Below, piece after piece: positions 5,291-38,952 of a stretch of 64,000 bases of DNA (position 1 is the first letter of the stretch; every line of letters begins with the position of its first letter). The position numbers and the translations under genes are program-made. The notes under the pieces are model-generated. The model saw only the letters and a list, made by a program, of their open reading frames with translations, was not told the DNA's origin and searched no databases. This DNA is from Nakamurella endophytica (lineage in GTDB: Bacteria; Actinomycetota; Actinomycetes; Mycobacteriales; Nakamurellaceae), in assembly GCF_014646215.1 (NCBI RefSeq), contig NZ_BMNA01000015.1, positions 1 to 64,000 on the forward strand, in the 5' to 3' direction.

Positions 5291-5519
5291 GCAACTGATC
5301 TAGCAGGCATCCGAGCGACCGGCAACAGCGCGACGTCGATGCCACGCCGATACCTCATGGTGCCGGTCACTCGGACGCCAGCGCCACCGTCATGAGCGGT
5401 CAAGGTGGGCCTTCACCATCATCCCGCTGTCGTATCGCCCACGCAACGATCAAACGCAGCCAGCAACGGGCTGCCGACCGCCACCGCGAGGTGGCGGTTA
5501 CCAGAACTGCTGGCTTGTT

Positions 5520-5900
5520 TCAGCCGGCGAACTCCGGTTCCGACGTGCTCGCGGCCGGGGTGCCGGCAGGGTTGGTGGCGGCGGCGTACTGCTCGAGAAC
5601 CTGGCGGGAGATGCGGCCGCGTTCGGAGATCTCGATGCCGTTGTCAGCCGCCCACGCGCGGACCGCGGCCGAGTCGCCGGTGCTACGCGACGGTCGGGCC
5701 GCTGCTCGTCGGGTGGTTCGGTCAGGGCGGATCTTACGGCCGGCGTCGACGAACTCGGCCATCACCTTACGCAGCGCCTTTGCGTTGCGGGCGCTCAAGT
5801 CAATCTCGTAGTCTCGACCGTCCAAACCAAACCGCACCGTCTCGGCCGCCTTGGAACCGTCGATGTCGTCTACAACCTTCACATCCACCTGCGATGCCAT
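5520..5900 (-). CDS. lsr2: Lsr2 family nucleoid-associated protein
   Basis: Actinobacterial H-NS analogue that coats AT-rich DNA and silences foreign genes. The N-terminal ~60 residues (VDVKVVDDIDGSKAAETVRF, then GLDGRDYEIDLSARNAKAL) match the Lsr2 dimerisation/oligomerisation domain. The C-terminal domain carries VRAWAADNGIEISERGRISR and QVLEQY; its Arg-Gly-Arg at about residue 95 is the AT-hook-like minor-groove motif. At 126 residues it is slightly longer than chromosomal Lsr2 (~112), through an Ala/Pro/Thr/Ser tail. A mobile-element copy could reduce the host burden of the element or silence its AT-rich cargo; that role is inference. Confidence 0.93.
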   Translation of the reverse strand: MASQVDVKVVDDIDGSKAAETVRFGLDGRDYEIDLSARNAKALRKVMAEFVDAGRKIRPDRTTRRAAARPSRSTGDSAAVRAWAADNGIEISERGRISRQVLEQYAAATNPAGTPAASTSEPEFAG

Positions 5901-6182
5901 ACCTGTCCCCGTCCACCTATCCCGTCGAATGAAGCCCTCTACTCACCCACAGTATCGGAAGGGACTTGACCCGCGAACACAGCAGCAACAATTTCGCTCA
6001 CCGGGTAGAGCTCCAACGTCGGGTCGGGGACGCAGCCGACGAGCTCGCGCACCTTGGCCGTCGGTCAGTCGGGGTCGCGCCAGTCGTCAATCATCCCCGC
6101 CCGGCAGCAGCAGGGGGCTGTGGTCGTGGATCTGTCCGGCGGCGTCGGTGGCCGGCGGAGAACTGTTCAACGGTCACTGTGG

Positions 6183-7040
6183 CTAGTTGTCGTAGGGGTA
6201 GTGATTTTGCCAGCCGTGCGGTGTCCACAGGAGCACTCGTCGAGCGAGTTCAGGAGCAAGCCACAGATGCGTGATGGCCGGCGGAAGTGGTGGTGGTTCA
6301 GGAGGAAGTGCTTGCCCATCGTCCAGCAGCCCGTAAAAGACGGGAAACGGCAGAACGCTCCAGTGCACAGGTAGGAACAAGTGGCGCTCATCGGTGTCGG
6401 CTCGTGCGGTCTTGTCTAAGTGGCGAACCATGTGCGGTTCTGCGAAGGCGTCTTCCAAGGCCTGTCGGAGCCCGCTCAAGGATTCGTCGACGGCGCCGCC
6501 TCGGGAGGCGGGAAGAACCGTGGCACTTCGAACTCGATTACCGTCTATGGCTGGTAGATCGGGATGACCGACCATGTCCGAGGTGGAGTGCTCCAACAGC
6601 CAGGCGATGTCGGGGTCCGGATCCACGCTGATCTGTCGTTGCCACAGCTGCTCAGGTCGGGACAGCCCTGCAGCCTCGCACAGCAACGCAATCCGGACGT
6701 ACCTGCCCCTGAGCTGCGGCAGATCAGCCGCCGAACCGACTTCAACCGTCCAGGTCCACTGGCCCGGCAGTGGCCACTGGAACTGGTCTCTGCTGAGCAG
6801 TGAAAGGGTCTGCAGCGCGCCGTCCCCGGACAGTGCAGTCACTTCGAACGCCGCCCGGCGGCCGGTGGGGTAGGTCAACATGGCATCGACGACGCCCTGC
6901 CGGCCGTCAACGTCCCACGGCTCGGCGACCACCCCCAGCACACGCTCAGCGATCAGGCACGCCGCCCGTTCCTGCTCACTCAAGCCTTGGAACCGATCTG
7001 ACACGTCCCAAGCACAGCATGGAGAGCACGGATTAGTCAC
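6183..7040 (-). CDS. Uncharacterised protein near the restriction genes (~285 aa)
   Basis: No confident family. After a short CSPCC cysteine cluster, residues ~15-70 read SDRFQGLSEQERAACLIAE and VVDAMLTYPTGRRAAFEVTA. This Asp-x(n)-Glu-x-Thr arrangement in a predicted beta-hairpin resembles, but does not prove, a PD-(D/E)xK nuclease core. The C-terminus ends in a conserved-looking block, HLWLAPELARRVLLWTPHGW then HYPYDN, which I have seen in actinobacterial hypothetical proteins. The start is uncertain: GTG at 7040 (used), GTG at 7004, or the frame limit at 7160. It is downstream of the helicase-methyltransferase pair on the same strand but separated by ~390 bp, so it may be independent. Confidence 0.6.
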   Translation of the reverse strand: MTNPCSPCCAWDVSDRFQGLSEQERAACLIAERVLGVVAEPWDVDGRQGVVDAMLTYPTGRRAAFEVTALSGDGALQTLSLLSRDQFQWPLPGQWTWTVEVGSAADLPQLRGRYVRIALLCEAAGLSRPEQLWQRQISVDPDPDIAWLLEHSTSDMVGHPDLPAIDGNRVRSATVLPASRGGAVDESLSGLRQALEDAFAEPHMVRHLDKTARADTDERHLFLPVHWSVLPFPVFYGLLDDGQALPPEPPPLPPAITHLWLAPELARRVLLWTPHGWQNHYPYDN

Positions 7041-7429: not shown

Positions 7430-10400
7430 TCAAGACACGGACGCTGGTGTGATGGCGGTCCAGCAGATCAGGTAGATGTCGTCGAGTTGCGCTGGCGGCA
7501 GCGGGATCGGCGCCTCCGGTACGGACAGGCCGTACTCCTCCGCGACGTAGGCGATGCGTTCAATCACAGTTCGCGGCGGGCCGTGCGTGGCCGTCTGCAG
7601 GGCTGCGCGGACCGCACGCTGGACGCGAGTGGTGTAGGGCGCCTTTAGCCGGTTGGCGAGGTCGTCTTGCCGTTCACCGAGGTAGGCGCCGTGCTGCTCG
7701 ACGAAGTCAATGGCATCGCGCATGACCTTGGGCAGGGGTGGGGCCAACCGCCCTGGGTCGGTCCGGAGCGACCAGTCCAGGTGGATGTCACGGCGGGCAA
7801 CGTCCCAGGCATCGAAGGCAGCGTCGTACATGCCGTCGGTCAGCTCGCCGGGCGGCGTGGTCTCGTCGCCAGGGTCGGCGTGCGAGAGGCAGGACAGTGT
7901 CTCCCGGATGACCTCGGGAGTCGGCTCGCCGGTGCCGGTGTGCACTGTCCGGATAGTGAGGTCAGCGTGGAGTGGGACGTACCGGTAGAACGGCTTGTCG
8001 TGGTCGCCGACGCGGGCGCAGAACACGAATCCTGGATCGGCGCAGTTCCTGGTGATGCCGGTTCCTGCACCCCAGGGGAGCGCGCGGACGCGGCTCTTGG
8101 TGGTGGGGTTCTTGAAGGCGTTGCTCAGCTGTCGGCGGTACTCCTCGCCGGACAGCGCGGCCGATCCGCCGTCTTCGAACAAGCCTGCCTCTTGGTGCTT
8201 GATCTGTTCGATCATGTCGCGAGTTTCGGTGATGGAGCGTTCCACGGGATCGACGCCGGGCAGGACAGTGCCGACGCCCACCGCTGCGGCGGCCTGCTTG
8301 AGCTTGCGCTGGAGCCGTTCCTCTAGGCCCAGGAGCCGATCGAGATCCTCGTCGGGGAAGAAGCAGCGCATGAAGACCCGGCTGTGGGGTGAGCCGATGC
8401 GGTCGATGCGACCGTGCCGCTGCACGAGCTTCATCGGATTCCAAGGCAGGTCGTAGTTGATGATGTGCCGGGCTTGCTGCAGGTTGACGCCTTCGGCGAG
8501 GACGTCGGTGGTAATCAGCATGTCGTACACGTCGTCCTCGGCGCCGGTTCCCGCGGTGTTCGGTGCGAAACCGGCGATCAGCGCGGTCCGGTCGATCTTG
8601 TCGGGGCCGGACACCAGGGCGTACCGATCGCGGAAGGAGGCCAGGCGTGAATCAGTGATGACGGCGTCCTTGACGGCCGTCTGGATGTACTCGGCGGTGT
8701 CAGTAAAGTAGGTAAACACTAGGACTTTCCGCTTGTTCCTGGTGTCATCCTCTCCGATGCCTTGGTCGTCGGCCTCGGCCGCGATGGTTGCGAGCTGGTC
8801 GATTAGGCGGGCGATTTTAGGGTCGGTCGTGTGGTCCACGTGTCGGACCCGTTTATGCAGCCGCGCCAGCAGGGCGCGATCCGCTTCAACGGCCTCCCGG
8901 AGTTCACCGACGTGGTAGCCGCCAGCGGCGATGGTGCCGTCGTCGTCCTCGAGCTCGGCGAGAAAGTCGGCGGCATCGTCCATGCCGACGGTGACGAAGT
9001 CACGCAGGCTCTCACCGGTCAGGACGTAGCCAGCGTCCAGGGCGTGCAAGAACCGGTCGTGGGATTCTATCATCTTAGCGACGGTCCGGCAGAAGGCGTA
9101 TGCCGAGGACTCGAAGCGCTTGAGCAGTGCGGAGCGGAGGAGTCCGGCGTTCTGGGCTTCATACTGTTCGGGCTCGCCGATACGGCGAAACTGAGACGGC
9201 ACGTAGCGGGCCATGGTGAGCACTTGTCCGAGGTCTTCGAGGATGACGCCGGCGCTGTCGCCCAGGCTGTCGTCGTCCACGTGCGCCCCCAGCGCGGTGG
9301 CCAGGTCGTCGAACACACCTGGCAGCACCCTGGTCAGGTCGTAGTCGACCCGGCGAACCTCACACGTCGGGAAGGAGATCTCCTGATCGACACCGTTGAT
9401 GCGGACCCGGTCACCTCGGTAGTGATTCTTGATGAAGCGTCGGGTGCGGCGCACGGCAGTCGCATCGAGCACATCGAACAGCTGCTGAGCGGTCAGGTCG
9501 TCCGGATCGGTGGCGATGGCCAGGTTGAAGTACTGCCGCAGGGAGGGGATCCCGATGTCGGCGAACGCGTAATCATTGCGCGCGAAGTACATGATCAGGT
9601 TGTAGAGATCTTCTAGGCTGTTGTTAACGGGGGTCGCCGTTAGCAGCACGAGATCCTTGGGCACCGTGGAGTCGACAATCCGGTGGAGTGCCTCGGCGCG
9701 CAACGTGAGGTTGTTGCGGAAGGCGTGGGCCTCGTCGATCACGACCATCGCGTACTCGTCGATGTGCTGCAGCGCGGAGCTCCTCGTGCCGGCGTTGTCG
9801 ATGTTGGACACCAGCTCCTCGAAGGAGATGACGTCGGCGCGAAGATTGGTGTCTCGCAGGAAGCCTGACCAGGTGGAGTCGCGCAGCGTCGCCGGGCAGA
9901 CGATCAGGACCTTCTGCCGCCGCTGGACGGTGGCCTCGTAGATCAGCTCACCCGCCAGGTAGGTCTTGCCCAGGCCGACCTCGTCGGCGATCAGCACGCC
10001 GTTGCGGCGGTCCAGGATCCGCTTGGCCCGCCAGACGCCGTCTGATTGGAAGGCTGTGAGCCCGAGCCGTGAGCCGGCGGTGGCATCGTCAAGGTCCGCG
10101 CCGTAGTTCTCGAACAGCATGCGCAGGAAAATGTCCCACGGCTGGTGGGGCTCCCAGCGTGACCGGTACAGCGAGGCTAGATCGTAGGGCGTCGCCTTCT
10201 CCCACTGTTCGTTGAACCAGTCGACGACCTGCTTGACCGGAGTCGGCTGGTAGTGGCCCAGGTTCAACTCGTTGTTGCGGGCCAGTCCGGCGTAGGTGAA
10301 GTTCGAGGAGCCCGCCAGGACTCCGGTGTTGTCGGTCTCAACGATGAACGCCTTGCCGTGCAAGAAACCCTGCTCGTAGCGCCGCACTTCGACCGCGGGG

Positions 10401-10816
10401 TGTTCCTCAAGCCAGCGCACCAGTCGGCGCGCGGCCGCGTCGGCCTCCCGTGTAAAACCCAAGAGGTTGCGGTCCTCCTGCAGGGCGCGGACGTGTCCCT
10501 CGAGCGCCCGCCGGACCTCCGGGCTTGGCCCACGACGACGCTGCCGCTGCCCCAACGGGCGGATACGGGAGCGTTCGTCGACGTCGACGGGCTCAGCTCC
10601 CAGCAACAGCCGGACGGCGCCGACCTGCTCGAGTTCCTCGGCGAGCAGGTTGAACCCGCCCGGGTTGAAGTACGCGGTCGCGATGGCCAGCGCCGGCGGC
10701 TCGATCCACTTGCCGCGCAGGTACCCCAGCAGCGAGTTGATGGCCGTGGCGACCTGTTGCCCGCTGGACAGGTCGTTGGTCGCGAACTCGGGCCTGATGG
10801 TCGCCGGAACGGTCAT
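7430..10816 (-). CDS. PLD-nuclease/SNF2-type helicase fusion (putative restriction/defence helicase)
   Basis: An 1128-residue protein. Residues ~20-220 resemble a phospholipase D-like nuclease domain with one HKD-type motif (FLHGKAFIVE...GVLAGSSNFT, from about residue 147). A superfamily 2 helicase follows: Walker A GVLIADEVGLGKTYLAG (~280), Walker B VVIDEAHAFRN (~357), motif III LLTATPVNNS, and a C-terminal helicase lobe ending in YDLPWNPMKLVQRHGRIDRI. It starts within the ATGA at the end of the methyltransferase gene (4-bp overlap), so the two should be translated together and act as one system. Pairs of SNF2/PLD helicase and Eco57I-class methyltransferase recall the translocase and methylase parts of DISARM-type or BREX-like systems, but drmA, drmB, pglZ and brxC partners are absent. 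I therefore call it a restriction-like two-gene system without naming a type. Confidence 0.88.
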   Translation of the reverse strand: MTVPATIRPEFATNDLSSGQQVATAINSLLGYLRGKWIEPPALAIATAYFNPGGFNLLAEELEQVGAVRLLLGAEPVDVDERSRIRPLGQRQRRRGPSPEVRRALEGHVRALQEDRNLLGFTREADAAARRLVRWLEEHPAVEVRRYEQGFLHGKAFIVETDNTGVLAGSSNFTYAGLARNNELNLGHYQPTPVKQVVDWFNEQWEKATPYDLASLYRSRWEPHQPWDIFLRMLFENYGADLDDATAGSRLGLTAFQSDGVWRAKRILDRRNGVLIADEVGLGKTYLAGELIYEATVQRRQKVLIVCPATLRDSTWSGFLRDTNLRADVISFEELVSNIDNAGTRSSALQHIDEYAMVVIDEAHAFRNNLTLRAEALHRIVDSTVPKDLVLLTATPVNNSLEDLYNLIMYFARNDYAFADIGIPSLRQYFNLAIATDPDDLTAQQLFDVLDATAVRRTRRFIKNHYRGDRVRINGVDQEISFPTCEVRRVDYDLTRVLPGVFDDLATALGAHVDDDSLGDSAGVILEDLGQVLTMARYVPSQFRRIGEPEQYEAQNAGLLRSALLKRFESSAYAFCRTVAKMIESHDRFLHALDAGYVLTGESLRDFVTVGMDDAADFLAELEDDDGTIAAGGYHVGELREAVEADRALLARLHKRVRHVDHTTDPKIARLIDQLATIAAEADDQGIGEDDTRNKRKVLVFTYFTDTAEYIQTAVKDAVITDSRLASFRDRYALVSGPDKIDRTALIAGFAPNTAGTGAEDDVYDMLITTDVLAEGVNLQQARHIINYDLPWNPMKLVQRHGRIDRIGSPHSRVFMRCFFPDEDLDRLLGLEERLQRKLKQAAAAVGVGTVLPGVDPVERSITETRDMIEQIKHQEAGLFEDGGSAALSGEEYRRQLSNAFKNPTTKSRVRALPWGAGTGITRNCADPGFVFCARVGDHDKPFYRYVPLHADLTIRTVHTGTGEPTPEVIRETLSCLSHADPGDETTPPGELTDGMYDAAFDAWDVARRDIHLDWSLRTDPGRLAPPLPKVMRDAIDFVEQHGAYLGERQDDLANRLKAPYTTRVQRAVRAALQTATHGPPRTVIERIAYVAEEYGLSVPEAPIPLPPAQLDDIYLICWTAITPASVS

Positions 10817-13800
10817 GCCTCGGCTTCCTCATGCGCCGCGTGGTAGGCCGCGGTGACGTTGTCTCGGTGCGCTCGGGGGAGACCCAGTTCCTTGAAGTCC
10901 TTGGCGATGGTGTCGAAGTCGTCCAGGTTGAGACCGTATCCGCGTAGTGTCGCAACCTCAATGTCGGCCAGGAGCCGCGGCACGGGCATCTCGGACAGGT
11001 CGGTGATGCTGGCCGCGGAGCGGGCCAGTACGTCGATGCCTCCGGCGAGCCGCCGGAACCCTTGACGCACCAGGACAGCGGCGACGCGTTCCGCGACGTA
11101 GCTGACGTCTTCCTCGGACCACCCGGGAATTGGTAGCTGGTTGACGACCGGCGCCGTGACGTGACGGTCGACGAAGCGCCGTGACCACCAGTCGAGGGTG
11201 TTGGTGTTGAGCAACCCGAGAAGGGCCAGTCGCGCGTCTTCGGTCGAGTCCGGCGCGTGAGCCACCCCGTGCACGTATCCCGCGTTGGGGAGCAAGCCCG
11301 CTTCCGGCAGGGCAGTCGCGATCACTGTGCGAGTGTCGTCGCTCCGACTGGGGTAACGGAAGACCACTACTGGGTGGCTGGCATCCAGGCGTACGACTCC
11401 GTGGTCAAGGGAGACACCGCGTCGTTTGGCCACGAGCGCTGGGAAATTGGCAATAAATTGTTTGTAGGGCACCGACTCGTCGTAGTTGTATGCGTCGGCG
11501 TGGGCGGTCATCAAGACCTTCCACGCGCCAGCTTCACTAGCATGCTTGGTCAGTCCATTGTCCGGTCCCGAACCGGTGAAGTCCCAACGGGTGTCACTCC
11601 GCCCGGATATCCACCCTCCTTGGACTGAAAGCCGGGCATGTCCTCGCATCTTGTCGAAGACGCGTTTGTCCTCCGCATCGACAAACCAGGGAATGACGTG
11701 GGACTCTGAGTACGTCGCAAGGTCATCGGTCGTCAGGGTGATGGCGTTTTCCTTAGAGGCGGCTTGGATCTGCTCAGCGGTCGTGGCCACCCACACGGCC
11801 ACTGGTGCGTCGGTTCGAGGACCGGCTGCCAACAGAACCACGGCGTACGACTGGTGAATGTCCTCGAACAGCCACTCGGCATGGTTTCTGCCTTGAACAA
11901 CTGCGAGGTCGTGGCTCACGACCAAGTGCTTGCGAAGCTTCTTCCAGCCAGCGAGCACCATGCTCTGACGGGGCAGCACCAGGCCCAAGCGGCCACTGGG
12001 ACGGAGCACCTTGATGGCGCGCTCGAGCATCAGCTGGGCGAGTTCAAGGTGGGTGCCGCCGCGCAGCGGGAAGCCTTCCTTGAAGTAGCTCTGGAGCTCC
12101 TCGCGCTGCTTCTGTTCCGATCGCTCGTGCGCTGCTTCGGTTGGATGTGTCCGACGGAGCTCGTTGATCCTGTCCGTCCGCTTCTTGTCGGGGAGCGCTA
12201 TGAGACCTGGACTGATTCCAACCCAGTACGGGGCCGGTTCCCAGCGGACCTTCTCCCACGGTGGATTGCCCAGGATGACGTCGAATCCGGGCTGCGGCCG
12301 GATGAAGACCTCAGGGAACAGCACGGGCAGGTGCAGCGCGTTGAGCCGCTGCACCGCCGCCTGGGTGCTCGCTTGGTTGCCCAGGGCGACCGCTTCCTCA
12401 GGGCCGGCGGGCAACTTCGCTTCGCCGAGCCGGACGGCGACTGCGCTGTCCAGCAGGGACCGAGCGCCGGCGGCCTCCTGCATCGCCTTGGCGTGGGCGC
12501 GAGAGGACTCTCGGACCTCGGCCTTAGTGGCCTCGGCGGTGCGAGCGACGCGAAGCAGGCGGTCGCGGGCCACCTCCAGGGTCGCCTTGATGCCCTCGGC
12601 GAACAGGCTTTCCTGTCCGGCGGCTGCCCTGGGCTCGAAAACGGTGAGCGCCTCGTCGACCGTGCCCATCCCGGTCAGGCTGTTGCCGACCCGTAGGCCG
12701 TGGTCGAGGGACGACATGGGCAGGCCGGGTACGAAGGTGTGGATCCAGATGGCGAGTCGCGCGAGCTCGACTGCCATTAGGTTGAGGTCCAGGCCGTAGA
12801 TGCATCGGCGGGCGATCTGGCGTCGCAGCAGCATCGACGGTTCGATCTCGATGTGTCCGGCCGCATCGCCAAGGGCCTCCTCGGCGGCGGCGGACAGCCG
12901 GCTCAGTTCATCGGTGACGGCGGGGATGGAGTGCTCGCTGAGGAACTTGGCGAAGCGGTTCTCGATGCGATCGATCGCTGCCACTAGGAAGTGCCCCGAT
13001 CCCATGGCGAGGTCGGCGACGCGGAAGTCAAAGTAGGTTTCGGCAGCGCCTGCGTCATCGCCGGCGTCCAGCATCGACTTGACTTGGGCCAGGTGATCGG
13101 CCAGAGCCGGCTCGAGCGCGGCGTCGAGCAGATGCTCGACCGCGAACGCCTTGGTGAAGTAGGAGCCGGTGGCCTTCCGGTTGCCGGAGGCGTTGTGGAA
13201 GTACACGCCGCCGGCGGGGACGACGACGAGATCCCCCGGCTTCGCAGGTAGATATGTCGCCGTCTTCGCGGCGACGGTGAGGTCGGCTGGCGCGACGGAC
13301 AGCGACGACTCGAGCAGCCCTTCATAGATCGTGCCGAACTCACGGACTGAAAGCGATCGAAAGTCGACCGGCCCGAGATCGCCGTCAGCACCCGTGTCGA
13401 TCAAGAGGGACTTGAGCGCCGGCCCTATCTCGGCGTTGCTCAGCCGCATCTCGCTGATCGCGTGACCAGACGGGTGCATCTCCGGGTCGCTGGCGAACAG
13501 GCCGCCGTTGTAGGCGGGCACGCCCCATTCGCGGTTGCCATCGTCGACGGCCCGCCAGACGGACTGCAGGTCCTCCCAGCGGTCGAAGGAACTGGCGTCG
13601 AACTCGTAATCACCGTCGGTGGAGAACTCGCGCGCGAGGGTCTTGAGAGCCTTGCGGGTGTACCGCGGGTTCCGTTGATACGGCAGCAGGCCGCGGTCCT
13701 CGGCGTAGGCCACGAACAGCAACCGGAACAGGATGATCAAGGTCCGGTGGTAGGCCTCGTGCAGGTCCTGCTCGTTCAGTTCGGCGTTCTGGGCGTTCCG

Positions 13801-14835
13801 CATGGCGTTGGCGACGGCAACCGCCAAGGCGGGGACGACATCGACGTACACGCGGTCGCGCAGTCGCGCTCCCAGCGCGGTGGCGTGGTCGATGGACGCG
13901 GCCAGGATCTCGGCGACAGTGCCGGTGGCATCGAGCGCGGTCGGTGCGAACAGCAGCGGCAGGTAGCCGGCATCCGCCTCGGTGAGCAGGGCCAGGTCGA
14001 GTTCAACGAAGGTCTCCGATTGTCCTTTCCGACCGACGCCGATGTCCGGCCGCGCCGGATAGAGGCGCATTTGGGTCCCCCGCATGACGATGAGCCAGGG
14101 CAGGTTGTACTCCTGGGCGATCGCCAGCCCCTGTGTGACTGGCGAGACCGCCCCGAACCGCACGCCGGGTCGATCGAAAAGCTCCTCCTCGTTGAGCAGG
14201 ACGGCGATTGCCTGGCGGGTCCCGTTGGCCGACAGCACGTGCGCGAGCGAACCGTAGGCCGTGGTGGTGTAGCCGAGTGCAGTGATCAAGGCAGCGCCGG
14301 TCTTGCCCAGCGTTGCCATGCCGCGGGCGCGGGCGGCTGCCCAGTCGACACGGGCAGGGACACCGTGACGCAGCTCGTGGGAGGCGAAGAGCCCTTGGTT
14401 GGTCAGACCAGCGATGAGCTGGTCTTTCGGTCCGACCAAGAGCCGTTGCAACGTCCGCTTAGCGGCGGCCGCAGTGGGCTCCGCCAGTGCAGCAGCACAG
14501 ATCCGCTCGACCTGGCTCAGGTCAAGGCCTCCGATGGCCGCCGGGTCACCGCTGAGTCCGCACACGGTAGCTTGCCATCCGCTGCTGCCCTGATGGGCGA
14601 CCACCAGCAGCACCGGAGCGGCGCGGCGATTCCAGCGTAGTGACCACAGTCGGCGGACATCGTCCATCCTGGGCGGGTTCGGCGAGACGGCGAGGGCGAC
14701 CTCAAGGGCGTCTGAGCCGGCTCCGATGGCGACGCGAAGCGGCTCCAGAGAGCTGGGAACCCCGCTGGGTCGCATCCAGTCAATCTCCTGCGTCTCTGTG
14801 TCGGCCAGGAAGTCATCGATGGAAAACGCTGCCAC
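10813..14835 (-). CDS. Eco57I-class DNA N6-adenine methyltransferase (1340 aa)
   Basis: Large restriction-modification-type methyltransferase. Motif I (DLAMGSGHFLVAAIDRIENR, from about residue 608) binds S-adenosylmethionine. The catalytic motif IV is ILGNPPWEKV (around 857), the NPPY/W form used by N6-adenine methylases. The N-terminal ~550 residues should hold the nuclease-like or scaffold region seen in long Eco57I/PglX relatives, and the C-terminal ~300 residues a target-recognition region (an IPGW motif and a terminal helical part are visible). It begins at a GTG after a ~900-bp gap and overlaps the helicase gene by 4 bp downstream. The length is closer to PglX/DrmMI-type stand-alone methylases than to classical type I HsdM (~500). 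Confidence 0.88.
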   Translation of the reverse strand: MAAFSIDDFLADTETQEIDWMRPSGVPSSLEPLRVAIGAGSDALEVALAVSPNPPRMDDVRRLWSLRWNRRAAPVLLVVAHQGSSGWQATVCGLSGDPAAIGGLDLSQVERICAAALAEPTAAAAKRTLQRLLVGPKDQLIAGLTNQGLFASHELRHGVPARVDWAAARARGMATLGKTGAALITALGYTTTAYGSLAHVLSANGTRQAIAVLLNEEELFDRPGVRFGAVSPVTQGLAIAQEYNLPWLIVMRGTQMRLYPARPDIGVGRKGQSETFVELDLALLTEADAGYLPLLFAPTALDATGTVAEILAASIDHATALGARLRDRVYVDVVPALAVAVANAMRNAQNAELNEQDLHEAYHRTLIILFRLLFVAYAEDRGLLPYQRNPRYTRKALKTLAREFSTDGDYEFDASSFDRWEDLQSVWRAVDDGNREWGVPAYNGGLFASDPEMHPSGHAISEMRLSNAEIGPALKSLLIDTGADGDLGPVDFRSLSVREFGTIYEGLLESSLSVAPADLTVAAKTATYLPAKPGDLVVVPAGGVYFHNASGNRKATGSYFTKAFAVEHLLDAALEPALADHLAQVKSMLDAGDDAGAAETYFDFRVADLAMGSGHFLVAAIDRIENRFAKFLSEHSIPAVTDELSRLSAAAEEALGDAAGHIEIEPSMLLRRQIARRCIYGLDLNLMAVELARLAIWIHTFVPGLPMSSLDHGLRVGNSLTGMGTVDEALTVFEPRAAAGQESLFAEGIKATLEVARDRLLRVARTAEATKAEVRESSRAHAKAMQEAAGARSLLDSAVAVRLGEAKLPAGPEEAVALGNQASTQAAVQRLNALHLPVLFPEVFIRPQPGFDVILGNPPWEKVRWEPAPYWVGISPGLIALPDKKRTDRINELRRTHPTEAAHERSEQKQREELQSYFKEGFPLRGGTHLELAQLMLERAIKVLRPSGRLGLVLPRQSMVLAGWKKLRKHLVVSHDLAVVQGRNHAEWLFEDIHQSYAVVLLAAGPRTDAPVAVWVATTAEQIQAASKENAITLTTDDLATYSESHVIPWFVDAEDKRVFDKMRGHARLSVQGGWISGRSDTRWDFTGSGPDNGLTKHASEAGAWKVLMTAHADAYNYDESVPYKQFIANFPALVAKRRGVSLDHGVVRLDASHPVVVFRYPSRSDDTRTVIATALPEAGLLPNAGYVHGVAHAPDSTEDARLALLGLLNTNTLDWWSRRFVDRHVTAPVVNQLPIPGWSEEDVSYVAERVAAVLVRQGFRRLAGGIDVLARSAASITDLSEMPVPRLLADIEVATLRGYGLNLDDFDTIAKDFKELGLPRAHRDNVTAAYHAAHEEAEA

Positions 14836-15743
14836 GTCGGCGGCCCCCTACTCACTGGAAAAGACGCCCTCGATCTTCTCCCATCGGATGCGACCGGACA
14901 CGTAGGGGCTGCTGATCGCTACCCACTCGGGCGAGCACTGGACCGGTCAGGTCATGGCTGCCCGTCGCAGCGCGGCGGTTGCTCTGGCGTCTATACGTTG
15001 CGGGTGCTGGCGATCTGCGACTGACTACCTCGGGACACCTCAACGACGGGTGCAGCAGGGAACCGAGTCTCGGCGACGCCGAAGTCGATGGGTTCCGCAC
15101 GCCAAGGCAACGGTGAGATTGGAGCCATAGGCGAATCGGGTGTCGCCTGCAACATCAGGACGTCCAGCGGTGGAGGGCGGAGCCGGTCCACATCGTGTTG
15201 ATCCAGTCGACCGTGCGTCGCTAGGTGGCTTCCTCCTCAAGGGTGAGGACGATGTCGCAGGTCATCGCTGCCTGAGCTTGAGCAGGAGCAGCGTCGCGTC
15301 GTCGGTGGGTTCGGGAGTCCAGGGTTCCGCGAAGTCTTGCGACTCGCTTGACCAGATCCGCGGCGAGTGACCCGACAGGCCTCATGTCCCATCGGCGTCG
15401 TGCGCTACCTCAGCGCTACCTCGTCCAGGACGTCCGGATCCGAGAAGCGGACGGACACGAGCTACTGGCACCTCTGCGTATCGAAGTCGGTCGTATGACT
15501 CTGGTTGGGCTCGTCGTCGCAGCGATCTGCCCGATGGCTTGAAGGCGGCCGATCGGCGAGACGGTCAACGGTGACCGGCGTAGCGAGCCAAAGGCTGGCC
15601 GCCTCAATCGGCGTGCCGGTAGGCGACTTGGTACTGCACGAAGCGTGCGGGTGCGATCGTCGGCGGCTCGAGCCAACGGCATGGTCTCTAAAGCGCCTCA
15701 ACGACACCTCAGCCAGTGACCGGCGGTACTAAATGTGAAACAG
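14836..15743. other. 900-bp stretch between defence genes, mostly without intact genes
   Basis: No open frame here has both a ribosome binding site and a family pattern. On the minus strand a short region (15262-15381) reads like the C-terminus of a PP2C/SpoIIE-type phosphatase, with related residues in the neighbouring frame. This suggests decayed coding sequence rather than designed intergenic DNA. Confidence 0.4.
15262..15381 (-). pseudogene. Possible remnant of a PP2C/SpoIIE-like phosphatase gene
   Basis: The minus-strand frame ends with PEPTDDATLLLLKLRQR and a TGA. The DDATLLLL pattern is the metal-binding Asp-Asp plus final strand at the C-terminus of SpoIIE/PP2C phosphatases. The preceding helix-like words ADLVKRVARLRG are found in the next frame over the same DNA, and upstream frames contain several stops, as expected for a frameshifted fragment. 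The match is short and could be chance. Confidence 0.3.
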
Positions 15744-17036
15744 TTACGTACTGCTGCCGTCCTGCTCTTTGTACAACGTCCGGACAAGTTCAAGTACGCG
15801 CACCGCCGCTTCGTCGTCAAGCTGCACGTCCTGGCCGTTGGAAAATCGAGCCTTGACGTTAGCAATGAGCGTGTTTGGATCCTTGCCTTGCCGAATGTCG
15901 AGGAGCGTGTTGCGGGCTCGGCGGATACTGCGGGGGTGACGAAGGTTCTGGTGGACTGCAGCGAGCTGATCTAGTAGCCGGTCGGCAAGGTGCCCATTCA
16001 AAGGCGGTGTAGGTGTGATGGCGGCGGCGATGTCCTCAGCTGCTGGCAGCACTGCGCGCTCGGCGGCTGGCAAGGTGTCGTACGTGTAGGTGGCCACGGC
16101 CATCGGCGAGTTCGCCGAGCCCAGCGCAAATCGAACGACCTCGTCGGTGCCGGAGCTACACACCAGGATCCCCAACGTGGAAGCGTGCTTGTCAGGTCGG
16201 CGCTTTTGCTGGTTGATCGCTCCGACGTAGAACTGCAGCTGACCGAGATGGGCGGGTTCGAACTTGCCGACCTTAAGCTCGACGACAACGTAGCGGAGCT
16301 GCTCCGGATGGAAGAGCAGCAGGTCGATGAAAAACTCGTCGCCGCCGACTTCAATACGGACCTGGCGGCCGACGAACGCGCAGCCGTAGAACTCCAGCAG
16401 CGTGTCTTGCAGCCGGCTCAGTAGACCGTCCTCGAGGTCGCGTTCAGAGGCGCTCGAGTCCAAGCCGAGGAAGTCGAACACGTACGGGTCGCGCAAGATC
16501 TCTCGCGCCTGATCAGCGTCGGCGGCGTCTAGGTGAGCGGGGAAGTTGTTCGGCGCCGCCCCGAGTCGGCTGCGCAGGTCGGTGGCGATGTGGTGTTCCA
16601 AGACCTTGCGGGACCAGCCGTCAACAGCGGAGCGTTGGGCGTACCACTCCCGCTCATGGGGGTCCTGCACCTTGAGCAGCACCGTCACCTGGCCCCAGGG
16701 CAATCGTCCAACAGCCTGTTGGACGATTGCAGGGTCCGGCCATGCAGCCGCAAGTGCCCGCATGGAGAACAGGTTCGATCGGCTCCACCCGCGCTGCTCC
16801 CCGAGCTCTTCTCGCAGGTCTGCCGCCAGGCGGTCAATCACTCGAGTGCCCCAGCCCTGCTCGTGCTGGCGGTCCAGGATCAGTTTGCCGATGCGCCAGT
16901 ACAGCCCGACCAGGTCCGTGTTCGCCGCGCGCACCACACGCAGTCGCGTGGCCAACACGTCTGCCTTAACCTGCGCCAGCAGCTCCGGATAGCCCTCAGG
17001 CAAGACCTCGGACGTCATGACTTCATCGGCTTCCAT
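15744..17036 (-). CDS. DUF1016/YhcG family PDDEXK nuclease
   Basis: YhcG-type protein of 430 residues. The N-terminal DUF1016_N region (PELLAQVKADVLATRLRVVR, then LVGLYWRIGKLIL and RGWSRSNLFSMRALAAAWP) is the winged-helix DNA-binding part. The C-terminal domain holds the PD-(D/E)xK nuclease core: Asp in FFIDLLLFH, then VVVELKVGKFEPAHLGQLQF with Glu-x-Lys. Such proteins are frequent next to restriction-modification genes and on mobile elements, and some act in DNA recombination or defence. Here it precedes the methyltransferase-helicase pair on the same strand and follows a small helix-turn-helix gene by 60 bp, so the last two probably share a transcript. A second ATG six codons in is an alternative start. 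Confidence 0.9.
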   Translation of the reverse strand: MEADEVMTSEVLPEGYPELLAQVKADVLATRLRVVRAANTDLVGLYWRIGKLILDRQHEQGWGTRVIDRLAADLREELGEQRGWSRSNLFSMRALAAAWPDPAIVQQAVGRLPWGQVTVLLKVQDPHEREWYAQRSAVDGWSRKVLEHHIATDLRSRLGAAPNNFPAHLDAADADQAREILRDPYVFDFLGLDSSASERDLEDGLLSRLQDTLLEFYGCAFVGRQVRIEVGGDEFFIDLLLFHPEQLRYVVVELKVGKFEPAHLGQLQFYVGAINQQKRRPDKHASTLGILVCSSGTDEVVRFALGSANSPMAVATYTYDTLPAAERAVLPAAEDIAAAITPTPPLNGHLADRLLDQLAAVHQNLRHPRSIRRARNTLLDIRQGKDPNTLIANVKARFSNGQDVQLDDEAAVRVLELVRTLYKEQDGSST

Positions 17037-17452: not shown

Positions 17453-18463
17453 ATGGCTCACATGCTGGAGAACCTGGGCGGCGCGGCGGGGGATGCGTCG
17501 TTCGTGTCGGCGCGGCAGCACGCCTGGCACCGGTTGGGGACTGTGCTGCCCAAAGCGTTCGACGCGGCTCAGGCCATGCAGTACGCCAAGTTGGGCGGCT
17601 GGGACGTGCGGACGGTACCGCTGCAGACCGCGTCGAGCATCGACGCCGACGGCGTTACGGCCGGGATCGACGTGCCGGATGCGTTCGCCACGGTGCGGAC
17701 CAACCCAGCCACCGGGAAGGTCGAACCTCTGGGGGTGGTGGGCTCGGGGTACCGGCCGGTGCAGAACGAGGCACACGCCGAGGTGCTCAACGCCGTTGTG
17801 GACGAGGGCGGCGCGCACTTTGAGACCGCCGGCAGCCTACGGGGCGGCCGTCAGGTGTTCATGACGATGAAGCTGCCGACCACGATGCGGATCGGTGGGG
17901 TCGACCCGGTCGACCTGTACCTGGTGGCGCTTAACAGCCACGACGGGTCGTCGGCGTTCCGGCTGCTGGTCTCCCCGGTCCGGGTGGTGTGCGCCAACAC
18001 CCAGGCCGCCGCGCTCCGGTCAGCCAAGTCGAGTTTTTCGATTCGGCACACCGCCGGCGCGACCGGCCGGATCGCTGAGGCCCGGCAGGCCCTCGGGCTC
18101 ACGTTCGCCTACGCCGAAGCGTTCCAGGCCGAGGCGGACCGGCTGATCGAGCAGCCGCTGAGCGATGTGCAGTTCAAGCAGGTCATCGCCCAGGTGTGGC
18201 CCACCGAGGCGACCAGCAGCCGCACCCACGCCGCCGACGAGCGGCTACGGGAGCTGTCCCGGCTGCGCCGCTACTCCCCGACCCTGTCCGAGGACTTCCG
18301 CGGCAGCAGGTGGGGCGCCTACCAGGCCATCACCGAGTACGTGGACTTCACCGCCCCGATGCGCAGCCGCCGCGCCGGACAGGCAGAACGTGCCGAGCGG
18401 GCCGTCACCGGCACCGGCCCGGCCGTCAAGACCCGCGCGTTCGAGCTGATCGCCGCGCTGTAA
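17453..18463 (+). CDS. DUF932 / phage-plasmid-like protein (TIGR03299 type)
   Basis: A 336-residue protein of the widespread DUF932 family carried by plasmids and phages; its biochemical role is not established. It opens with MAHMLENLGG and the diagnostic ARQHAWHRLGTVLP. It continues with FATVRTNPATGKVEPLGVVG and with RLLVSPVRVVCANTQAAAL, a conserved block of this family. The C-terminal TEYVDFTAPM segment is also typical. The ATG has an AGGAGG Shine-Dalgarno. A 13-bp perfect hairpin follows the stop codon by 9 nt. It is usually part of the replication/maintenance cargo next to DUF6573-like genes, as here. Confidence 0.9.
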   Translation: MAHMLENLGGAAGDASFVSARQHAWHRLGTVLPKAFDAAQAMQYAKLGGWDVRTVPLQTASSIDADGVTAGIDVPDAFATVRTNPATGKVEPLGVVGSGYRPVQNEAHAEVLNAVVDEGGAHFETAGSLRGGRQVFMTMKLPTTMRIGGVDPVDLYLVALNSHDGSSAFRLLVSPVRVVCANTQAAALRSAKSSFSIRHTAGATGRIAEARQALGLTFAYAEAFQAEADRLIEQPLSDVQFKQVIAQVWPTEATSSRTHAADERLRELSRLRRYSPTLSEDFRGSRWGAYQAITEYVDFTAPMRSRRAGQAERAERAVTGTGPAVKTRAFELIAAL

Positions 18464-30298: not shown

Positions 30299-30769
30299 TC
30301 ACGTTTCGGCGGGTTGCGTGCTATGGCGGATGGCGTCGGTAAGCTCGCGGTCGTCTCGCACGTTGTGTTGCCCCTTTCGGCACGCCGTGGCGCCCGGTCC
30401 GAGCAGCCGGATACGCAGACGATCCTGGAAGGCCGGCAAGTTGCGGTTGTAGTAGTCCAAAGCGGTTATTACAGTCGAGTCCTCGTCGGTATGAGCAGCC
30501 CACCAGGCCCAGTACTGCACGGGCAGTTCGTGGGTCAGCGGTGGATGTAGCCGCCAGCAGCGAGGTATCACCTCATCGACTCTGGTGGCGTAAACACGGT
30601 TGTAGGCGTCCACGAAGCCGTCTAGAGCGACGTCGAGCCAGGCGGCGTCCTGGGTGGACAGGTTGGCCCACGCCCACGGCGGTGTCCCAACCTTGCGGCC
30701 ATCGGCGCGGGTCGCCAACGCCAAGAACCGGTCCGTATCCATGTTGTTGGAGAGTGTCGCGGGGTTCAC
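30299..30769 (-). CDS. Last gene of the transfer operon, unknown function (156 aa)
   Basis: Starts at a GTG overlapping the TGA of the coupling-protein gene by 4 bp, so it is translated with it. It contains WAWANLSTQDAAWLDVAL and CWRLHPPLTHELPVQYWAWW, a Trp-rich block that recalls DUF4913-like plasmid proteins (Trp...HP...L...W) without being a clear member. No signal peptide or membrane segment; cytoplasmic. A role as accessory to the coupling protein is inferred only from position. Confidence 0.65.
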   Translation of the reverse strand: MNPATLSNNMDTDRFLALATRADGRKVGTPPWAWANLSTQDAAWLDVALDGFVDAYNRVYATRVDEVIPRCWRLHPPLTHELPVQYWAWWAAHTDEDSTVITALDYYNRNLPAFQDRLRIRLLGPGATACRKGQHNVRDDRELTDAIRHSTQPAET

Positions 30770-32769
30770 GGCTTAGTCCGTCCTTTCGTGGCGGTGCCGG
30801 CGTACACGGCGAGCTCGTCAACGTTGGCGAGCTGCTCGCTGCGGCGGGCAGCGACAAACTCGTCGGCTTGGGTCATCTCACGGTGGATGACGCGGTCGTC
30901 GTGGCGGCGGTGGTCGGCGCGATGGGTGGTGGCCAGGAAGGCGGGGATGCCGATGCCGAGGACGACGGACTGGCCGTCGGCCAGGTTCTGCTGGTCGGAT
31001 TCGGGCAGGACGTCGACGAGCTCGGCGTGTTCGGTGCGCTGGCCGCCGCTGGTGCGGCCGCGGTTGCGGCTTGCGGTGACGACGTGGGCGCGGCCGGCGC
31101 GGCGGGTGATCTCGTCGGCGGCCTCGGCGTCGTAGCCGCCGATGATCGAGTGGCACTGGGTGCGCAGCCGGGCCGCGGCGGCCTTGCCGTAGAGCTGTTC
31201 CTCGTCGGCCGAGGACTGCACGGCGTAGGCGAACGAGATGCCGTACTTGCGTTGCACCGAGGCCACGTACGGCAGGATCGGCACCCGCACCCCGGCCAGC
31301 AGCTCGTCGAACACGCCGACGAACGTCTGCGGCAGCCGTCGCCGTGGCAGCAGCCGTGCGGTGCGTTCGGCGGTCAGGAACATCTCCTGCGCGAACAGGG
31401 TCAGCAGCGGCCGCGCCAGCTCCATCTCGTCGACCTCGGCGAGCAGGTAGACGGTGCCGCCGGCGGCGATCAACGCGGCCATGTCGAACTGCGGGTCGTC
31501 GCGGCTGCCGCACAACGCCCGGCCTTGCCCGGACCCCAGGGAGGACACGGCGAAGTTCAGGTACCGGCGCACACCCGAGGTGGTGCGCCCGGCCGCCGGG
31601 TCCAGGTGCACCTGCATGTTCATGATCGCAGTCTTGGCGGCGGTGTAGCCGTCCCCGGTCTGACCGCCCAGCGCGGTGGCCGGGGTGCCCAGGTCGGTGC
31701 TACGCAGCCAGTCGACGATGTCGTCGACGTCCAGGGCGGGGTCGAGGGCTGCGGCGTGCAGCCAGGCGGCCAGCACCTGGGTGGCCGAGTCGCGGAAGAA
31801 CTTGTCGGTGGAGGACTCGAACTCGTTGTCGCCGTCGCCGGCGTGCACCAAGGCGCGGGCCCGGTTGGTGGCGACCTTGAAGTCGTGGCAGCCGACGATA
31901 GGGTTCCACCGGACCCGGGGAAACCCGGCGGCCATCCGCGTCGACGGGTCGGACAGGTCGGCGACCACAACCGGGTACTTCACCGGTATGCGCCAGCGTC
32001 TGCGAAGCAGCCGCATCCACCGGTACCGGACCGGCGGCAGGCGGTAGCCGCGGGCCTTGACGGTGGCGGTAAAGATCTCCGACTCCACCGACGACACCAC
32101 CGCCGCGCCGGGCAGCTGCCGGATCAACGGGATCAGCAGCCGCCACGACTTGCCCCAGCCGGTGCGCGCCACGATCCGAAGCCGTGTCTCGTAGCCGAAC
32201 CACAGCGACTCACGGGGAGCGTTGGGTTGCAGGGGATGCCCGAACCGGTAGCCCATGCTGGTCGTCGGCAACCACAGCCGCCGCCACCAGCTGGTGCCCG
32301 GCAGTGTGAACCTGCCGGTGCGGCGCACCGCCCGGGCGCCGTACTTGCCGCGGATCTGCCGCACCGTGGCCAGGCCGCGGTAGCGCTGAGCGCCGGGGTA
32401 GCGGCGATGAGACCCCCAGCGGCGCAACATCAGCAGCCATCCGGCGAACAGCACGGCCGCCACCACCGCAACCGCCGGCAGTGGCACATGCGGAACCACC
32501 AGAGTGAGCGGAAACTGGACCCGCCGCGTCGACCTGCCTTGACCGGCCAGGTCCAGCAGCGGACCGCCGCCCACGAACAACCCGCGCCAGCGCGGCTTGA
32601 CCAGGTGCCAGCCCCGGCCCGTCGCCACACCGACGGTTCCGAATCCCAGCTCCACGCACAGCACCGCCCCGGCCAGGGCAGCGGCTCCGGTGCGGATCCG
32701 GGCGAAGGTCTCCCGGGAGGTGCTGATCCGGGTGACACCTTCCCGATGCTGGTCAGTGCGCACCGCCAT
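30766..32769 (-). CDS. VirD4/TraD-like type IV coupling protein (667 aa)
   Basis: Couples the relaxosome to the transfer channel. Two N-terminal hydrophobic segments (residues ~30-50 and ~75-105, the second containing VVAAVLFAGWLLML) anchor it. The P-loop is degenerate, RIVARTGWGKSWRLLIP at about 195-210. Walker B is TFVGVFDELLAG and a late helicase-like block is QSSADEEQLYGKAAAARLRT, as in TraM-recognition/VirD4 proteins. Its ATG lies inside a 40-codon ORF that bridges it to the NlpC/P60 gene, with GAGAGGAG as ribosome binding site. Downstream it overlaps the last gene of the operon. Confidence 0.88.
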   Translation of the reverse strand: MAVRTDQHREGVTRISTSRETFARIRTGAAALAGAVLCVELGFGTVGVATGRGWHLVKPRWRGLFVGGGPLLDLAGQGRSTRRVQFPLTLVVPHVPLPAVAVVAAVLFAGWLLMLRRWGSHRRYPGAQRYRGLATVRQIRGKYGARAVRRTGRFTLPGTSWWRRLWLPTTSMGYRFGHPLQPNAPRESLWFGYETRLRIVARTGWGKSWRLLIPLIRQLPGAAVVSSVESEIFTATVKARGYRLPPVRYRWMRLLRRRWRIPVKYPVVVADLSDPSTRMAAGFPRVRWNPIVGCHDFKVATNRARALVHAGDGDNEFESSTDKFFRDSATQVLAAWLHAAALDPALDVDDIVDWLRSTDLGTPATALGGQTGDGYTAAKTAIMNMQVHLDPAAGRTTSGVRRYLNFAVSSLGSGQGRALCGSRDDPQFDMAALIAAGGTVYLLAEVDEMELARPLLTLFAQEMFLTAERTARLLPRRRLPQTFVGVFDELLAGVRVPILPYVASVQRKYGISFAYAVQSSADEEQLYGKAAAARLRTQCHSIIGGYDAEAADEITRRAGRAHVVTASRNRGRTSGGQRTEHAELVDVLPESDQQNLADGQSVVLGIGIPAFLATTHRADHRRHDDRVIHREMTQADEFVAARRSEQLANVDELAVYAGTATKGRTKP

Positions 32770-38512: not shown

Positions 38513-38952
38513 GTGCTGCCAACCTCGCCAGGGTCATGTTGAGCGAGCGAGTCCACTGCCCAGCTGCCGTCGCTTCGCTTGATGAGGCCCGGCTCGAAGA
38601 TCAAGAAGCGGTTGACTGGCTGATCGACCGTGTAGATGACTCCGACGGATCCGTTGGAGTAGGTGCAGGTTTGCTGACTGGCGCGGGGAGTCTGGTGGGA
38701 CCAGTTCGCGCTACCTGTGCACAGGCTCTGGCTGGTCAGCGCGGCGCGTTCCTTCGTCGTGGTGAAGCTGCATGCGGTGGCGAGGTCGCCAGCTGCCCAG
38801 GCGTTGGCGAAGGCGTCGGCGACGGCGCGTGGGTTGGTGCGGTCGACGGTGGGAGGGGCGGGGGTGTTGCTGCCGCCGCAGCCGGTGAGCAGCACGCCGC
38901 CGAGGACCGTGACGGTGGCCAGGGCGGTGATGGTCTTGGGTTGCGCGGTCAT
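38506..38952 (-). CDS. Transfer-operon lipoprotein (148 aa)
   Basis: The ATG overlaps the stop of the VirB4-like gene (ATGA). The N-terminus MTAQPKTITALATVTVLGGV ends in the lipobox LLTGC, so the mature protein is lipid-modified on Cys and held outside the membrane. The domain that follows (TNPRAVADAFANAWAAGDLA, TACSFTTTKERAAL) resembles small NTF2-like or DUF-type extracytoplasmic domains that end in an RSDGSWAVDSL strand. Located between the VirB4-like and VirB6-like genes, it is probably part of the transfer complex. Confidence 0.8.
   Translation of the reverse strand: MTAQPKTITALATVTVLGGVLLTGCGGSNTPAPPTVDRTNPRAVADAFANAWAAGDLATACSFTTTKERAALTSQSLCTGSANWSHQTPRASQQTCTYSNGSVGVIYTVDQPVNRFLIFEPGLIKRSDGSWAVDSLAQHDPGEVGSTC

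Follow-up and report, generated by a model that had tools for sequence, protein, structure and literature searches.

The genes P1 and P2, on the minus strand of a 64,000-nucleotide stretch of Nakamurella endophytica DNA (contig NZ_BMNA01000015.1, positions 1 to 64,000; hereafter the window), form a conserved two-gene unit by sequence comparison, and we give a probability of about 0.75 to their being a two-gene ATP-dependent restriction-modification system, in which P2 would recognize and methylate a target and the motor-nuclease P1 would cut unmethylated DNA. P2 comes first (10813..14835; 1340 amino acids [aa], GTG start) and codes for a predicted adenine-N6-type DNA methyltransferase with a target-recognition half, as indicated by its translation and by matches to Pfam Eco57I and PADLOC. 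It is followed by P1 (7430..10816; 1128 aa), a predicted PLD nuclease plus SNF2 helicase identified from its translation, Pfam, orthologs, and motifs kept in 18/18 aligned pairs. The P2 stop and the P1 start overlap by 4 bp (10813..10816 in the coordinates of the open reading frames [ORFs]), as an earlier note on this DNA had stated for the 1340-residue methylase and the PLD/SNF2 helicase, and the two may be translationally coupled through this overlap. The same note raised the possibility of a minimal two-protein restriction-like system, which is supported by the co-inheritance of P1 and P2 and by the lack of any third gene recurring among 13 loci. The co-inheritance itself, a swapped specificity half, a motif-less nuclease fold in P2, and a PADLOC Type IIG label for P2-like proteins are additions to it.

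P1 matches the Pfam families PLDc_2 (2e-9), SNF2-rel_dom (1.7e-15), and Helicase_C (1e-15), and the nuclease-like domain that had earlier been read in the helicase is confirmed by the PLDc_2 match and by HKD residues present in 18/18 pairs. The PLD (HKD) nuclease domain spans approximately residues 45 to 205 (10202..10684), with PLDc_2 at 130 to 205 and the start at residue 45 estimated from conservation; H153, K155, the GSSN at 169 to 172 (G169-S170-S171-N172), and E183 are invariant in all 18 aligned pairs, and each P1 chain has a single HKD motif. The SNF2-type helicase core (approximately residues 250 to 850; 8267..10069), placed by Pfam and motif conservation, contains Walker A at 281 to 285, DEAH at 361 to 364, TATP at 393 to 396, and motif VI at 799 to 806, with Walker A K284, D361-E362, Q799, R800, G802, R803, D805, and R806 likewise invariant (18/18). 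The best PADLOC model for P1 is 'HKD+Snf2' (162 bits), and its score of 170 bits against the DrmD model NF038317 lies below the cut-off of 610.

The methyltransferase core of P2 runs from an S-adenosylmethionine (SAM) motif (residues 608 to 614) to NPPW (857 to 860), as delimited by conservation (12256..13014), and D608, G612-S613, and NPPW 857-860 are invariant in the 18 aligned pairs; with the invariant motifs intact throughout, both P1 and P2 look alive. Eco57I (1.3e-12) and N6_Mtase are the only Pfam families matched by P2 at E 0.001, and the same scan at the same threshold gave no DUF1156-type methylase signature. The best PADLOC model is REase_MTase_IIG (PDLC03620, 630 bits). P2 scores 28 bits against the PglX model NF033452, below the cut-off of 500, and 216 bits against the DrmMI model, for which a true DrmMI scores 1822; the concern in the earlier note that the methylase might sit inside a described system is answered, as regards DrmMI, by this difference and by the separate clades that both proteins form (see below).

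Orthologs were searched with P1 among genomes, plasmids, and virus contigs, and with P2 among class genomes and plasmids, yielding 24 core loci besides the window. A methyltransferase sequence is present upstream of P1 and on the same strand in 21/21 of these that are readable, with P2 intact in 18, cut by the contig end in one (L027), and broken in two (L180 and L184). With author-chosen starts, 17 of the 18 intact pairs other than the window have P2 and P1 spaced at −85 to +56 bp, and the 4-bp overlap seen in the window is found in 6/18. Full-length P1 orthologs share 39 to 78% identity, a level that excludes chance. The hosts are actinobacteria and haloarchaea, with plasmids among the carriers, and include Umezawaea, Rhodococcus, Actinoplanes, Mycobacterium gallinarum, Euzebya, Paenarthrobacter, Halalkalicoccus, and Halorubrum; in the plasmid records examined, P2 is annotated as a hypothetical protein and P1 as a helicase. 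The pair is rare, with core P1 in 3/101 near relatives and P2 in 2/394 class genomes (the window's own genome counted in both); by comparison, a DrmD-model match at that threshold occurs in 54/394 class genomes and exceeds the curated cut-off in 29. In the phylum as a whole, the P1 threshold is reached in 18/396 genomes, nine of them core (by score and length, fragments counted) and nine more distant.

P1 and P2 are inherited together, and their pairwise distances over 15 loci correlate with r = 0.82, a value reached by 0/2000 permutations. P2 residues 870 to 1340 (10816..12228) behave as a predicted exchangeable specificity half, for which the evidence is a drop in identity at NPPW, the existence of two sequence classes (the window being class A), and conflict between trees. 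The window and L024 have 67 to 68% P2 identity over residues 1 to 850, 25 to 26% beyond 895, and 66% P1 identity; the corresponding values are 67 to 68% over 1 to 850, 22 to 24% over 896 to 1290, and 74% for L033 and L026, and 64 to 65%, 22 to 23%, and 69% for L036 and L037, with the break at the NPPW motif in all three comparisons. The 18 C-halves split cleanly into class A (window, L022, L033, L036, and L183) and class B (13 sequences), with BLAST scores of at least 261 bits within a class and at most 117 between classes. Class A is a single clade with support of 100 in the C-half tree of 15 sequences, whereas in the N-half tree (also 15 sequences, L181 to L183 being absent from both) it needs at least three changes by well-supported branches, a number as low as which was obtained in 129 to 135 of 500 label shuffles. 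Class A member L036 is on a haloarchaeal plasmid, and by its N-half it belongs with other haloarchaeal-type pairs. On the alignments and trees, the exchange of the P2 C-half between lineages while P1 stays unchanged is the signature of a specificity domain, as shown by target-recognition regions of restriction systems; because P1 follows the P2 N-half in the trees, its specificity is most likely supplied by P2.

No third gene accompanies the pair constantly. In an all-against-all comparison of ORFs of at least 70 aa from 13 actinobacterial and haloarchaeal loci (L023 and L025 being near copies and L027 a 4.7-kb contig), the only families recurring in three or more loci are P1, P2, and ORFs that overlap these two genes in a different frame. 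The MZB/DUF1998 marker of drmB and YprA is over cut-off in 8/17 pair-bearing genomes or records, namely eight actinobacterial genomes with one ORF of 810 to 1022 aa apiece, plus one extra in each of G478 and G480; the single ORFs are probably housekeeping MrfA-type helicases, and the sole match in the Nakamurella host is a 922-aa ORF on contig C4. Plasmid W03 has a partial match below the cut-off. The pair shares its contig with an over-cut-off MZB gene in 1/17 only; that gene is the extra ORF of G478 (Umezawaea, L022), which belongs to an ARMADA-like set and is located 28.7 kb from P2 on the strand that P2 occupies; the G003 pair contig, at 4.7 kb, is too short to judge. As a positive control, MZB is found within 35 kb on the same contig and strand in 24/30 true DrmD places, at 9 to 30 kb; of the other six, two have it at a greater distance and four lack it on that contig and strand. 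By this yardstick L022 alone among the pair loci would count. The apparent occurrence of true DrmD-DrmMI pairs standing alone in actinobacteria (L140 to L143) was rejected, as the stretches were too short and MZB is nearby in those 24/30.

PglZ is found in 1/17 pair-bearing genomes or records, the window's own, on contig C3 rather than on the pair's contig C15. The earlier note recorded the absence of DISARM and BREX partners from the window; across the pair-bearing genomes, the pair is not always accompanied by either set. DUF499 is over cut-off in 3/17, and is near the pair only in G068 (approximately 6 kb), where the set upstream of the pair (L197, 3449-13124) has its own 1183-aa SNF2 helicase and 931-aa methylase and is like BREX-Related (BR) type 1; the G003 match is on another contig and that of W06 is weak and over 80 kb away. 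A DUF3780 scan gave 0/17, but the control genomes gave no match either. Some pairs therefore lie in defense islands beside complete related systems, none of whose genes is constant.

P2 also contains a nuclease-like fold. The AlphaFold2 model covers residues 1 to 1200 with a mean pLDDT of 61 and is good across most of 10 to 350. Residues 176 to 314 (13894..14310; pLDDT mostly 75 to 94) are modeled as a restriction-nuclease-like fold related to the HsdR N-domain and BpuSI, with VIA-align pairing 177 to 314 with the N-terminal nuclease domain of HsdR (3h1t, Z 8.6) and 174 to 311 with Type IIG BpuSI (3s1s, Z 6.8); the P2 body from 319 on matches BrxX/PglX (best, Z 9.9, rmsd 8.5) and HsdM. Z values below 8 may reflect a common arrangement, and the P2 parts outside 5 to 120 and 319 to 1059 are barely covered by these comparisons. 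A Foldseek search with the P2 model returned nothing at E ≤0.001. The D...ExK motif is not conserved in this fold among the 18 sequences, so the live nuclease is most likely that of P1; P2 thus resembles a Type IIG enzyme that has lost its cutter, its own nuclease fold being probably dead. Residues 1 to 130 (14446..14835) are modeled as a small alpha/beta domain with a weak fold match to Hjc-type resolvases and no conserved nuclease motif, which could be a second degenerate nuclease fold, although a VIA-align match of Z 5 to 6 may be mere common arrangement.

In the restriction-modification system that we favor, the C-terminal half of P2 would read a particular DNA sequence, in which P2 would methylate an adenine and so protect host DNA. 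At an unmethylated site on incoming DNA, P2 would engage P1, whose SNF2 motor would travel along the DNA using ATP and whose PLD domain would cut. Single-HKD-motif PLD nucleases act as dimers, and since each P1 has one such motif, cutting probably requires the meeting of two P1 molecules, as in Type III and Type ISP enzymes. Methylation, complex formation, translocation, cleavage, and phage defense are all predicted rather than observed activities. L180 (6998-12827), in which P1 is open over 1110 aa beside two P2 fragments without the methylase core and retains its HKD, Walker A, and DEAH motifs, fits a P1 that needs P2 in order to act and is harmless by itself.

Several observations weigh against this interpretation. 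The L180 P1 has TVTP in place of TATP and may itself be decaying, so that this locus is not a clean basis for a harmless P1. Three core loci (L167, L179, and L188) are uninformative, the contig stopping where P2 is expected. In L038, P2 and P1 are 877 bp apart, separated by an ORF (5477-6337) for a trypsin-like protease of 286 aa, and one of nine core places in the P2-query search has no P1; this is L155 (7920-12403) of Halorubrum lacusprofundi, a second P2-like gene of 1098 aa in a stretch containing no P1, followed by an ISH3-type transposase. The P1 structure model is poor (mean pLDDT 54) and was left unused, so the P1 domains rest on sequence, and the P2 fold matches are of middling strength. 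The P2 nuclease-like fold keeps acidic positions, with E218 in 17/18 and D or E at 221 in 18/18, and no conserved lysine, and a non-canonical nuclease site there is possible.

The restriction-modification reading has to be weighed first against exclusion in the manner of BREX or DISARM, with P2 marking self and P1 blocking replication or unwinding or nicking the invader, and with no sequence-triggered double-strand breaks. The P2 body best resembles PglX/BrxX (the Z 9.9 match, at high rmsd), its sequence kin include DrmMI, haloarchaeal, and ARMADA methylases, and ARMADA is reported to act directly without abortive infection (PMC12458937). We nevertheless regard exclusion as unlikely, as BREX and DISARM partners are not recurrent beside the pair, the nuclease motif of P1 is invariant, and P1 lies outside the DrmD-like clade. 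Membership of the known systems is not indicated either. Nothing in the pair locus codes for PglZ, and P2 falls short of the PglX model, unlike BREX; the rarity of drmA/drmB (MZB) near the pair (L022 only, where the gene is ARMADA-like), the DrmD-model score of P1 below cut-off, and the position of P2 outside the DrmMI clade all speak against class 1 DISARM. Both ARMADA and class 1 DISARM (DrmD plus DrmMI) have adjacent genes for an SNF2-family helicase and a PglX-like methylase, but they come with a YprA-type helicase (PMC12458937), and the pair operon has none; the one ARMADA-like helicase scanned has no PLD match, and the ARMADA and DISARM helicases are in a clade other than that of P1.

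A second, quite improbable alternative is that the pair is part of a larger system with a further factor encoded elsewhere. P1 relatives occur in larger sets, such as the BR type-2 systems of PMC12839542, as well as in clusters with small extra genes, and two pairs are near complete related sets, the ARMADA-like set of Umezawaea at 21.5 kb and the DUF499-bearing set of G068. However, each of those sets has its own helicase and methylase, only the P1 and P2 families recur among the 13 loci, and the distant relatives L185, L187, L189, L190, and L191 also have a methylase gene directly followed by a helicase gene. BR type-2 systems share with the pair an HKD-nuclease plus Swi2/Snf2 helicase effector and an adenine methylase, but they additionally encode DUF3780 and a DUF499 ATPase, and DUF1156 is a feature of BR methylases (PMC12839542); the pair has no constant third gene and no DUF499 in the locus, and its methylase is Eco57I/PglX-like rather than of the DUF1156 type.

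That the pair is a decaying leftover of ARMADA or DISARM from which the YprA-type helicase was lost is hardly credible: the Umezawaea pair (L022) is on the same contig and strand as the ARMADA-like set, but the SNF2 helicase and methylase of that set both fall outside the pair clades, and motifs are intact in 18/18. That set (L159) comprises a YprA-type protein of 1715 aa, an SNF2 helicase of 938 aa, and an Eco57I methylase of 1310 aa, and ends 21.5 kb before P2; two ORFs that look by eye like McrB/McrC follow it. Equally remote is the idea that P2 is a complete Type IIG enzyme with P1 an unrelated neighbor, since despite the 630-bit REase_MTase_IIG score and the nuclease-like fold at 176 to 314 with its two conserved acidic positions, D...ExK is not conserved in that fold and P1 and P2 are together in 21/21 readable core loci and co-inherited.

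Returning to the restriction-modification reading, we consider it somewhat better than an even bet that the pair constitutes a distinct two-gene class of ATP-dependent restriction, with an IIG-like methylase whose nuclease fold is dead, cutting passed to a separate PLD-SNF2 motor, and specificity changed by C-half swaps between lineages, actinobacteria and haloarchaea among them, without a change of motor partner. A methylase with an exchangeable specificity region, for which the sequences give evidence here, places the pair with ATP-dependent restriction-modification of the general kind. Type IIG enzymes such as BpuSI and DrdV share with P2 a nuclease-like fold ahead of the methylase and specificity half, as well as the PADLOC label, but P2 has no conserved catalytic D...ExK and is accompanied by a separate motor-nuclease gene. 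Type III (Mod/Res) systems also have two genes, for a methylase with specificity and for a helicase-nuclease, but the helicase of Res is Rad25-like and is typically accompanied by a nuclease of the restriction fold, whereas P1 is PLD plus SNF2; Type III Mod is a beta-class methylase. Type ISP enzymes (LlaGI and LlaBIII) likewise have a nuclease, an SF2 motor, a methylase, and a recognition domain acting together (PMC7049714), but in one polypeptide, whereas here there are two ORFs (18/18 aligned pairs) and a PLD-type nuclease. A literature search through titles, abstract beginnings, and passages, those of PMC9142583 and PMC6471742 included, found no published description of the P1-P2 unit, with subscription papers mostly outside its scope, so that one may exist; a term search of PMC8565338 gave no matches.

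If correct, this would be a very small ATP-driven restriction system of two genes, present in both Bacteria and Archaea and with plasmids among its locations, that combines a methylase of the PglX/DrmMI type with a PLD-SNF2 effector, parts otherwise reported from DISARM, ARMADA, and BREX-Related sets, and it could reveal what the methylase-helicase core does without other partners. The two natural specificity classes suit a domain-swap comparison of methylation motif and restriction. PADLOC currently splits the pair into 'Type IIG' (P2) and 'HKD+Snf2' (P1).

Trees of 41 helicases and 33 methylases were built with a quick search and SH-aLRT support, without bootstrap and with midpoint rooting for drawing, leaving out L025, which nearly duplicates L023, and L027, which is truncated at either end of its contig; the tree of 41 helicases, the second one made, also omits five of the eight BR1 rows (L144 to L151, see below). 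The pair P1s form one clade and the pair P2s one clade, each with support of 100. P1 groups with helicases matching its model from the N-terminal PLD region onward and is separated, with support of 100, from the helicases of the DrmD, haloarchaeal DrmD-like, BR1, and ARMADA groups. In a tree containing no PglX, Type IIG, ISP, or DUF1156 enzymes, P2 is on the side of the DrmMI, haloarchaeal, and ARMADA methylases and is distinct from the TaqI-like enzymes found with some other P1 relatives. The deeper joins are unsure, since long branches were flagged in the tree building. The pair has the appearance of a mosaic in which a methylase of the PglX/DrmMI type has been combined with a PLD-SNF2 effector.

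The more distant P1 relatives are varied. The simple HKD pattern was not found in L029 to L031 and L189 to L191, which leaves the name 'PLD helicase' unproven for these six loci; the pattern is present in the other distant relatives tested whose stretch includes the N terminus. L186 starts at a contig edge, and L192 to L194 have no P2 match in the stretch examined. Twelve phage records have distant helicases only, none covering 80%. L144 to L151 were first labeled 'ARMADA-like', which was wrong; the neighbors examined resemble, by eye, the DUF499/DUF1156 set of BREX-Related type 1, and the loci were relabeled BR1. The labels 'PLDmodIII' (L028 to L031) and 'TaqIlike_PLD' (L152 to L154) derive from the neighbors seen and not from model scans. 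In L028 (3836-12042) a PLD helicase lies beside a 916-aa protein and a GHKL/MORC-looking ATPase, an arrangement resembling by eye the MORC-associated restriction operons of PMC2292703. Among the core loci, L026 has a large ORF (13240-17004) downstream of the pair that looks by eye like trypsin, and in L184 both pair genes are split across frames in one genome, from decay or sequencing error.

In the window, a scan for promoters and terminators and of the 908-bp gap upstream of P2 found nothing. Farther upstream is a DUF1016/YhcG-type PD-(D/E)XK nuclease gene (15744-17036, minus strand; PADLOC candidate PDC-S02), which is not common to other pair loci. It and P0003 (6183-7160) were each considered as partners and dismissed because neither family recurs beside other pairs. 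The Nakamurella PglZ-domain ORF on contig C3 (L138, 560001-580000) is 1006 aa long, with neighbors of 1191, 1259, 435, and 712 aa, and the cluster looks like BREX type 2, PglZ being model-tested and the rest judged by eye. The window also codes for a TraG/VirD4-type coupling protein (30766-32769, minus strand), an AAA_10 ATPase (38949-41441, minus strand), and a DUF932 protein (17453-18463, plus strand), and these predicted genes make the contig look like a conjugative element or plasmid.

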